Positions 21,413 to 29,822 of a DNA stretch of 64,000 nucleotides are shown piece by piece. Positions within the stretch are counted from its first letter, which is position 1; every line of letters begins with the position of its first letter. Both the position numbers and the translations under genes were made by a program. The DNA comes from Paralichthys olivaceus (lineage: Eukaryota; Chordata; Actinopteri; Pleuronectiformes; Paralichthyidae). The notes under the pieces are model-generated. The model did not search any database. It was given only the letters and a program-made list of their open reading frames with translations, and was not told the origin of the DNA. The stretch is taken from positions 11,686,986 to 11,750,985 of the forward strand of contig NC_091116.1 in NCBI RefSeq assembly GCF_024713975.1, written 5' to 3'.

Positions 21413-24400
21413 TCAGTCATCTTCTTCCTCCTCCTCCTTAACCTTCTTTTTCTTCTTCTTTTTCTTTTTTTCTGTCGACTGGAAATGGAGAAAAGTTGGA
21501 TGGTTAAAAAAAACAAACATTACATTACAATAAAAACAGTGCAACACTTCCCCAATCTTTAACAAACCATCTCAAAAATATTTTCACCTCTGCTTCTGCT
21601 ACCTCCTCCTCCTCTGGTTCCTCTGCTCCAGTGTCTGCTTTCTTGTCCTTCTTTTTCTTCTTTTTCTTGGGAGTCTCCTCCGCTGCTGCTGACGTTTCTG
21701 CTTCTTCTAAAAAACATAACATTTGAGTCAAAACACATTTTAGAATCGTGAAGCCCGTGCTGATATTGAGACAAAGGGTTAGCTTCACCCACCTTCTGCT
21801 ACTGGCTCCTTTTTGGCCTTTTTGGATTTGACCAGAGGCGTTTTAGGTTCTTCAGCCTCCTCTACCTCTTCAAACTTCCTCTTCTTTGAGGTGGAAGGTA
21901 TGGTTGAATCGCCAGATGGATCATAAATTCTAACTTCACTGTGAAGAGAAAAAAGTGTGTTTTAAGCAATTTCACATGTGGAACAGAATAAAACCGCAGG
22001 AGAAGAGCCCTTTGTGACTATTCACCTCTTGTGCTGGTATTTGTCTGCCTTCGCCATTGCTTTGCCCGTTCCACTGATTCTTCGGATCTGAAAAGAAATT
22101 GTGGAGGAGACAAGATCTTAAAATCAGATCCAACGACAGGTGCAACTCAATGTTGATCTTGTGTTTTGGGTTAAAATAAGATACTTACTCCCTTCTCCTC
22201 CAGCTGCCTCAGTCTGGCCTCCAGCTTAGCACGGTTCTCTACTCCCATTTCTGCATTTGTGTCCTCTCCCAGGGCATCATAGCGAATTGCCAGTGCTGCT
22301 TTAGCCGCCAGCATTCTGGAGATCTGGTCAGGAAACAAGAGTTTATTTCCTCAGCCCCGGACAAGGGTCACAAGTCCTTATTAAGTCTAACTTTTTCTTT
22401 AACTCACCTTGCCCTTGTTCTTGGCAGTTGTCTGGCCCACTAGAGAGGCATGGTAAATGAGACCGTACTTGGGTGTGTCTTTACGGGTCTTCAGGGCTCT
22501 AAACAGAGCCTTCTCTGCTCCGAGGATCTGCACCGTGGAGGCCGGATGCTTTGCCAAGTTCAGTAGAGAACCTTAGTAAAAAAAACCAGCAACAAGACAG
22601 ACGTGTAAAACGCTGATGTTCTCACTAGTACCTGCACACAGAGCCTTTAAGGCAAGCTCAGATGAGGTAGTGACTTAAAACCATCAGTTGTTTTCAGGAA
22701 AGTGACTTTATGTCATCATCATCACTGCTTGCTTGCTTCTCACGCAGGTGATTCTCAGTGACTTACCAGCATGTGAGATGAGACGGGCACCAACCAGCTC
22801 ACCCACCATTACAGTCAAGTTGGGGGCGATCGCCATCATTCGGTTCTTGAGGTAGTCGTACAGCTGAGTGCGATAATCTGAAATCTCAATCACCTGAGGG
22901 GAGATAAATGAGGGAAGATCCATATTACAACTACCACCAGATAAACAATCAGATCAGGAGACAGGCCTATCCAGTAGTAAAGAGAGAGAGTCGTGGCACG
23001 TGACAGTTCAGATGAGGTAGTGACTGAAAACCCACATGGGATTGTTTCAGGAGAAAGACAACTGTCGTCATCATCACAACTGTCACTTCAGCTTAACACG
23101 TAATTATAAAATACGGACGCGCACCTGATCACAAAGGTGCCTTATGTTGCCAATGTCCTGTTCTGACACTTCGGTTCCCATGGAGATCTCAGCAGCCAGT
23201 TTGACCTCGGCCTCGATTTCCTCAGGGAGAAGGTCTGACAGGTCAGAGCCGGCCACGTTGGTACGATCACCTGCAGACACACCAGAACATTTTTAACTGC
23301 TTATCAATAATATCGGCAATGTTTAGTTTGTGTTAATGAGTTGCATGCTGGGAAGTGTAGGATCTAGCATTTTTTAAGCTTGAACCATACCAGGGATTAA
23401 AACTTGTATTTAACTGTCTCATGCATCCCTCTTAAATTTATGGAAGTGTGAAACTAAATGAACTTAGAACCGCCTTGAATAGTAATGATGTTAGTTATAG
23501 CAACCAATTACCAATTTTACGGACTGCTTTGCAGTAAGCCAAGTTGTCTGTGATGACCTTCCCCAGCTCAGGGAAGTGCCAGCCGTACCACTCTCTGCAA
23601 CGCATGATGTAGTTGTTGAGCTCCTTATCCAGGTCATCCAGAAGAGCTGAAGACACACAAAGAAAGTCAGACTTCATTAAAACAGGTAAAACTATTATTC
23701 AATTCATCATGCTTTTTTAATCAAAAACACCAATATACACATATACGTTTTTTTAATAGTTTGTGGTAACTATAATACACACGCAGTCTAAGTATGTGGA
23801 AATCATGACTGACATTAGTCACCATTTCTTTATATATTAGAGAGCAAACAGTTAAATAACTGTATAAATCAATGTGAAAATAGTCATTAGTAGCTGACAT
23901 AACCAAATCTGTATTGTTTGTGTTCTCACATCGAATATAAATAAATATAACTTACAAATGGCCTGTACAATCATAGTATCCACTTTGTCCGGACTGAACT
24001 TCAGCTTGTAGCGTGACAAACTAAAAACAGAAAACATTGATGAGTTACTTAACAAACTGACAATTAACAGATTAAAAAATTACGGGGAAGCCAGTTGCCT
24101 CAGTGGTAGTGACGAATGCTGATAAGAATCTACAGGGTTATTTCAGACAGCAAGTGTAATCACAGGCAGCAGTTGTGTTAACATAACATTGTATCGAGGT
24201 ACCAACCTGTGAGCCAACCCCAGAGACATGGCACTGATCTCTCTGGGAGGAAGTCCAGTGACGAGAGCCTCGATCTGGCTCCTGATGCATCTCATGAGTT
24301 CAGCCACAGCAGGGCTGTGGACACAGCTCAGGTCCAGCTTGTCCTGTAAACCAGAGCCTGTTAGACTCAAGTAAGCCTGAAAACAACGCTTCATTTCTGA

Positions 24401-29400: not shown

Positions 29401-29822
29401 GCCTTGAGAGCAGAACTCAGCTCGGGGAAGGGATCCAAGCCACAGCAGCTGGAGAGCGTGAAGGGAGGCACTACAAGGCATCAGATGAAGTCTGGGCCGT
29501 GTCCCAGTCTCCCTCTCTGACCGGTGGGGAGAGAATCTCTGACCTTGGCCATCAGGAGGGTTTAGAAACAAATAAATCTGGCGATCCGTATTTGACGCAG
29601 AATGGTCAGGACCAGGGTTTACTCACTGACCGGGTTTTCTCAGAACAATCAGATGATCCTCGTGTGGACTCGGCCGCAAATGGTGAGCAGGTCGGAGGAG
29701 GTTTAATCCTTAATGACATCAGCAACGGCCACAGCCTCCGTTTGAAAACCACAGATAAAATCACATCTGCTGCGAATGTGTATGATGATGAAATATGGGA
29801 GAGCCCTGCTGCTGCTTTGTGA
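26463..29822 (+). CDS. nufip1: NUFIP1 snoRNP assembly factor (complete, 429 aa)
   Basis: Nuclear FMR1-interacting protein 1, equivalent of yeast Rsa1; a scaffold linking SNU13, ZNHIT3 and the R2TP/HSP90 machinery during box C/D snoRNP assembly. Exons: 26463-26667, 26954-27039, 27136-27240, 27533-27595, 27684-27760, 27846-27938, 28015-28202, 28619-28759, 28905-29194, 29322-29822; phases agree. Features in order: Pro/Ser-rich N-terminus (MNEPGHYPPPDFGSPPP); C2H2 finger ([20 protein letters not shown] plus QH); second Cys/His cluster (CSVPDCSFTAHEKIVSIHW); the SNU13-binding type motif (WREERRKNYPTL); an RG-rich run at exon 28015; a second RGG run at 29091-29150; and the ZNHIT3-binding type helix (LLAPDIRHERNVLLQCVRYV). 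About 125 residues follow that helix, where human NUFIP1 ends soon after. AATAAA lies at 29959-29964. Confidence 0.95.
28015..28080 (+). repeat. Arg-Gly repeat in NUFIP1
   Basis: The codons give RMRGRGRGRGRGRGRGRGWG, an RG dipeptide array of the kind methylated by arginine methyltransferases and used for RNA binding. A second array of GRGG units is encoded at about 29091-29150. Confidence 0.9.

Follow-up and report, generated by a model that had tools for sequence, protein, structure and literature searches.

The 64 kb of Paralichthys olivaceus DNA analysed here (the window; C24:11686986-11750985, in a searched genome of 588 Mb and 25 contigs) holds NOP58 on the minus strand and NUFIP1 on the plus strand. 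The two genes lie head to head with facing starts, and their ATGs are less than 1 kb apart, at 823 bp (Table 1). Both the window and the adjoining 190 kb on its left side are free of N. A sequence-only reading of this DNA had described two complete, divergent genes with this spacing, and the gene models, Pfam and PDB agree with it. The head-to-head adjacency of NOP58 and NUFIP1 in this fish is thus confirmed.

The NOP58 model was obtained by spliced alignment to the human NOP58 sequence. Its ATG is at 25639, the aligned exons extend from 25639 to 21422, and two further codons and the stop lead down to 21413; all introns of the 15-exon model are GT-AG and the frame is open. Human NOP58 in PDB 7mq8 matches the predicted protein with E 4.1e-242, and Pfam finds Nop (E 7.8e-87) as well as NOP5NT. 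The Nop domain has 12 matches genome-wide, which are located on C24 (NOP58 here), C13 and C2. The exon boundaries of NUFIP1 were set by eye and afterwards checked: every intron is GT-AG, and the exons join into a single open frame of 582 aa. Pfam NUFIP1 matches this protein with E 7.3e-19, and residues 421-449 match the solved NUFIP1 fragment of PDB 5l85 (E 1.2e-7), which we take to be the ZNHIT3-binding part. The NUFIP1 domain has two matches in the genome, both on this contig: the complete gene and a fragment.

Table 1. Features of the NOP58-NUFIP1 locus, in window positions
Feature	Position	Strand	Details
WDR12, next gene past the NOP58 3' end	17115..20105	minus	13 exons, 423 aa; PDB WDR12 top match, E 2.5e-63
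NOP58 coding span	21413..25639	minus	15 exons, 533 aa; spliced alignment, PDB 7mq8, Pfam Nop and NOP5NT
SNORD11B-family snoRNA, NOP58 intron 9	22651..22733	minus	Rfam RF01192, 72.4 bits, above cut-off; next exon 79 nt on
SNORD11B-family snoRNA, NOP58 intron 8	23001..23085	minus	Rfam RF01192, 80.1 bits, above cut-off; next exon 107 nt on
Weak SNORD70-like candidate, NOP58 intron 5	24088..24176	minus	Rfam RF00575, 30.3 bits, E 0.22, cut-off 50; next exon 67 nt on
SNORD70 candidate, NOP58 intron 3	24718..24804	minus	Rfam RF00575, 49.7 bits, cut-off 50 (0.3 short); next exon 165 nt on
Spacer between NOP58 and NUFIP1 start codons	25640..26462		exactly 823 bp
NOP58-side CpG cluster	25648..25862		19 CpGs; probable NOP58 promoter and 5' untranslated region
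CpG-free linker	25863..26131		269 bp; CpG count and base composition
NUFIP1-side CpG cluster	26132..26457		15 CpGs; probable NUFIP1 promoter and 5' untranslated region
TCTCGCGAGA, CGCG element / Banp motif	26170..26179		sole copy in the 64 kb window
GGAAGTGACGT, ETS-like and CRE-like composite	26379..26389	plus	shuffle rate in text
NUFIP1 coding span	26463..29822	plus	10 exons, 582 aa; GT-AG introns, open frame, Pfam, PDB 5l85
Stretch from NUFIP1 intron 3 to CFAP-like exon 1	27448..30599	plus	inverted copy ~161 kb left, lacking 27932-29082
Inverted remnants of the CFAP-like gene 5' part	31044..32099	minus	genome DNA matches

The spacer is divided into three zones, which hold 19, 0 and 15 of its 34 CpGs. 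No continuous CpG-rich region spans it, as the gap at 25863-26131 interrupts the two clusters, and the centre of the linker (25901-26100) has 26% G+C vs 43% for the whole window. The palindrome TCTCGCGAGA and the ETS-like and CRE-like composite GGAAGTGACGT are present at 26170 and 26379. TCTCGCGAGA is contained in 5 of 20000 dinucleotide-shuffled spacers, and GGAAGTGACGT or its complement turns up in 2 of 3000 shuffles, rates that are not corrected for choice because both motifs had been named beforehand by the sequence-only reading. Both stand on the NUFIP1 side of the spacer. The exact TCTCGCGAGA lies within the NUFIP1-side CpG cluster, a presumed promoter, 283 bp from the NUFIP1 ATG and 530 bp from the NOP58 ATG. 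Zebrafish Banp motifs precede start sites by 20-70 nt (PMC9363121). If the same rule holds in this fish, the NUFIP1 start would be expected near 26200-26250, and a NOP58 start at TCTCGCGAGA would require a 5' untranslated region of roughly 460-510 nt. Because of the CpG-free gap, the placement of both motifs on the NUFIP1 side and the Banp rule, two abutting promoters would fit the spacer better than one core promoter.

The spacer also contains a 13-mer in two inverted copies, TGGGTTGCCAGGT at 25781-25793 and ACCTGGCAACCCA at 26147-26159. They were considered as a paired regulatory element and rejected as evidence for shared control. An inverted repeat of 13 bp is reached in 7 of 1000 spacer shuffles, and the 13-mer has 121 copies in the genome vs 3 for a reversed-letter control. 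By hand count, CACA precedes 10 of the 18 other copies read vs neither of the two spacer copies; the 18 come from 16 short stretches (one holding two copies) and one place in the gpalpp1 gene. The CACA-preceded copies look like an old interspersed repeat. A transposon insertion in the spacer was likewise rejected, as no repeat element was detected at the sensitivity of the genome DNA search. The spacer query (25641-26463, offset by one base) gave six other matches in the genome, each about 30-35 bp and inside its simple repeat.

The second, incomplete NUFIP1 bears on the history of the pair. It lies at C24:11553759-11551755 on the minus strand, about 161 kb left of the complete gene, and lacks everything before intron 3 as well as the 1.15 kb of window 27932-29082, which include exons 7 and 8. 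The remaining parts are 99.0% (window 27448-27931) and 98.6% (29083-30599) identical, with 18 substitutions over 484 + 1517 window bases (2001), suggesting that the inverted duplication is young or that the copies were kept alike by conversion. The left copy leads directly into a CFAP-like gene, whose 5' end is open (MAAGSFRV...) and of which a close reading covered just the first parts. Exon 1 of the CFAP-like gene is repeated 3' of the complete NUFIP1 (30503-30599), with a stop at the seventh codon, and is followed by the right-hand remnants, which are 80-89% identical. Part of that difference is gaps; substitutions amount to 9 in 583 columns in the longest remnant and to 25/433 and 16/152 in the others. 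DNA matches below 150 columns were dropped in the main search for copies, and a part was searched again at E 1e-4 without that filter. In PDB the gene is closest to CFAP47 (E 2.4e-9), with FAP81, FAP360 and FAP221 close behind, and Pfam gives ASH (E 3.2e-9); a second CFAP-like peptide has no Pfam match, and we leave the name at CFAP-like.

The recognised genes of this part of C24 run in the order CFAP-like(-), NUFIP1 fragment(-), DPP4/FAP-like(+), GCG(+), SLC4A10-like(-), STK24/25-like(+), SLC15A1-like(-), DOCK-like(-), BMPR2(-), ICA1L(-), WDR12(-), NOP58(-), NUFIP1(+), grancalcin-like(+) and KCNH(-), with other coding-like segments left unnamed. Names were partly checked by Pfam and PDB: the peptidase scores higher as DPP4 than as FAP, grancalcin is just ahead of sorcin, and KCNH2 is the best match of the channel gene among the 60 of 63 matches listed, although by position the gene would be KCNH7. 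The SLC15A1-like peptide has no Pfam match and was named by eye. Segments in which a single residue made up more than 30% were left out of the coding-segment scans, whose codon scores had been trained on NOP58 and NUFIP1 (one scan also tried a KCNH exon), so that weakly codon-biased genes may be missed.

When the list of hand-typed gene names is flipped between the two NUFIP1 copies, it reads CFAP-like(-), NUFIP1(-), NOP58(+), WDR12(+) and so on to SLC4A10(+), GCG(-), DPP4/FAP(-), GCA(+), KCNH(-). Its last five genes then agree with what we take to be the human 2q24 order and strands: SLC4A10(+), GCG(-), DPP4/FAP(-), GCA(+), KCNH(-). A 160 kb inversion with a duplicated NUFIP1-side end is therefore likely beside NOP58-NUFIP1. 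Because the flip restores this presumed human order yet keeps NOP58 beside NUFIP1, their adjacency would, most simply, predate the inversion; the spacer between them is not at a breakpoint. Staggered breaks give rise to inversions with duplicated inverted ends, and like these, the segment here is flanked on its two sides by oppositely oriented copies of one stretch. It differs from them in its truncated left copy and in the extra inverted CFAP-like remnant at its right end, and therefore the event was more complex than a simple staggered-break inversion. Polymorphism or misassembly at the outer breakpoints is possible.

Taken together, our data suggest, with a probability of about 0.62, that NOP58 and NUFIP1 form a genuine divergent housekeeping pair made by chromosome reshuffling, with two abutting CpG-rich promoters. 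The adjacency is probably accidental in origin. Most likely, the two genes would start from two facing CpG-rich promoters about 0.5 kb apart, with NUFIP1 using TCTCGCGAGA and the ETS/CRE sites and NOP58 using its own CpG cluster beside its ATG. Mild co-expression through shared open chromatin in one short stretch would be plausible, as in many housekeeping pairs. NUFIP1 tethers 15.5K to NOP56, NOP58 and fibrillarin during assembly (PMC9406135). A coupling of NOP58 and NUFIP1 would make sense from this role; such sense is not evidence, and we see no sign that the pairing was selected for small nucleolar ribonucleoprotein (snoRNP) assembly.

A less probable alternative is that a single bidirectional promoter centred on TCTCGCGAGA was kept to balance NOP58, its intronic small nucleolar RNAs (snoRNAs) and NUFIP1, which would amount to the shared control region proposed by the sequence-only reading. 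The divergence of the genes, their spacing and the tethering role of NUFIP1 speak for it, and TCTCGCGAGA is the CGCG element, which by itself drives transcription in both directions in reporters (PMC6192621). The promoters of this CpG-island class are backed by GRO-cap and reporter evidence, and include POLR1C/YIPF3 (PMC6192621). Like POLR1C/YIPF3, the present pair has the exact element between divergent genes; the starts of POLR1C and YIPF3 are 30 nt apart, whereas in this fish 823 bp, including a CpG-free gap, separate the two ATGs. That gap, its A+T-rich centre, the 530 bp from TCTCGCGAGA to the NOP58 ATG and the crowding of the motifs on the NUFIP1 side lean toward two promoters. In addition, the share of human CGCG elements located in the promoters of bidirectional coding pairs is just 5%, or 7% when coding/non-coding pairs are included (PMC6192621 Table 2). 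The earlier proposal therefore survives in its observations, and its single control region appears doubtful.

The reading that we favour, an accidental pair with two abutting promoters, has several points against it. One TCTCGCGAGA element could possibly serve both genes, given its two-way activity in reporters (PMC6192621). The inversion argument depends on presumed human gene orders. Human ribosomal protein genes are adjacent in 6 of 144 cases (P 2.8e-3; PMC3500266 Table 2). Finally, WDR12, a ribosome-biogenesis gene, NOP58 and NUFIP1 are consecutive on the minus, minus and plus strands, three nucleolar genes in a row, and this run mildly favours selection or domain effects. The WDR12 model was built by spliced alignment to human WDR12, and the coding-segment scan saw no likely coding stretch between WDR12 and NOP58. 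Such a run of three is expected by chance 0.003-0.05 times per genome (for 118-300 ribosome-biogenesis genes among 24000). The argument is weakened because the run was counted post hoc and because human WDR12 and NOP58 share a chromosome band region. As to the pair itself, divergent functional pairs are expected about 0.002 times per set of 15 genes in 24000, that is, about twice for 1000 sets; a functionally linked pair of neighbours is therefore unremarkable, since one is expected somewhere once many gene sets are considered.

From the run one could also read a ray-finned-fish cluster in which WDR12, NUFIP1 and NOP58, the last carrying as many as four box C/D snoRNAs, were brought together in a series of rearrangements and maintained because selection favoured coordinated output of ribosomes and snoRNPs, a history that we regard as improbable. 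NOP58 and NUFIP1 are immediate neighbours, and both act in ribosome/snoRNP biogenesis (roles from PMC9406135). Adjacency of ribosome-biogenesis (RRB) genes is significant in yeasts and, according to the abstract, in other eukaryotes (PMC3500266). As in those pairs, two such genes, or three with WDR12, stand side by side here. In human, by contrast with yeasts, the count of adjacent RRB genes is 0 of 118 (P 0.71; PMC3500266 Table 2), so that at least one vertebrate does without pairing of its biogenesis factors. If it is true, such a cluster would parallel, in fish, the paired yeast genes, which were not found in human.

The truncated NUFIP1 copy allows two further explanations of the adjacency itself. 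The pairing could be private to this species or allele, with NUFIP1 recently copied beside NOP58 from the CFAP-side locus and the old copy since decayed; the ~99% identical fragment adjoining the CFAP-like gene would fit such a course. It requires, however, that NUFIP1 inserted precisely at NOP58, that the old copy decayed and, on top of these, that the inversion implied by the break between DPP4/FAP and GCA took place, and a single inversion with a duplicated end accounts for all of this (given the presumed human order). We therefore consider recent copying decidedly improbable. Alternatively, an assembly error at the inverted duplicate might have produced the NOP58-NUFIP1 junction or turned the 160 kb around. 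Inverted copies ~1% apart can mislead assemblers, and this difference is within the range of two alleles. The sequence is, however, free of N throughout the window and the 190 kb to its left, the left copy lacks the 1.15 kb with exons 7 and 8, and the spacer is away from the breakpoint and has no second copy save the ~30 bp simple-repeat matches. Such an error is highly improbable.

The divergent partner of NUFIP1 differs between human and this fish. The gpalpp1 domain has one match in the genome, on contig C1, that is, on another contig than NUFIP1; we take KIAA1704 to be GPALPP1. On C1, gpalpp1 is followed by GTF2F2 (TFIIF beta HTH domain) and faced by ERCC3 (XPB in PDB, E 4.4e-107), with the start codons of ERCC3 and gpalpp1 placed by eye near C1:23350918 and 23351903, about 1 kb apart. 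In human, NUFIP1 and KIAA1704 form a head-to-head pair (PMC3024869 Table 4). NUFIP1 is thus one half of a divergent pair in both, with NOP58 as its partner here and gpalpp1 facing ERCC3 elsewhere. The claim that the human arrangement is different is supported indirectly by these two pairings. The partner swap (NUFIP1 with GPALPP1 in human and with NOP58 here, GPALPP1 with ERCC3 here) is a clean case, useful to test whether promoter sharing matters, even if it is accidental.

In open-licence PMC text, we found no report linking NUFIP1 and NOP58 as head-to-head or syntenic genes. New here are WDR12 as the other neighbour of NOP58, gpalpp1 facing ERCC3 on another contig, and the truncated inverted NUFIP1 copy. 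If the pair is conserved and coupled, one locus would link the core snoRNP protein, the snoRNAs in its introns and the assembly factor in their dosage. It would then also be a vertebrate case of the RRB gene pairing known from yeasts and other eukaryotes and not from human.

Between NUFIP1 and the grancalcin-like gene, a gene-like peptide beginning CFPGVQGKYIYCPSRVFSLYNAQGMVNETTW... is encoded on the minus strand at 30822-30998. It has no Pfam match and may represent one exon of a gene that was not recognised.

An E-box, CACGTG, a motif common in MYC targets, occurs at 25331 inside NOP58 intron 1. Introns 3, 5, 8 and 9 of NOP58 each hold one box C/D snoRNA candidate, in keeping with the intronic snoRNAs proposed earlier: the two SNORD11B members score above the Rfam cut-off and the two SNORD70 candidates below it. 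A genome scan for SNORD11B found at least two loci, both in NOP58, a lower bound because just the best 57 of 120136 first-look candidates were scored. The C boxes of the SNORD70 candidates deviate from the consensus. The SNORD70 and SNORD11 candidates of NOP58 have GTCACTACC in common upstream of box D, which suggests that they may be guides to neighbouring sites of one ribosomal RNA stretch.

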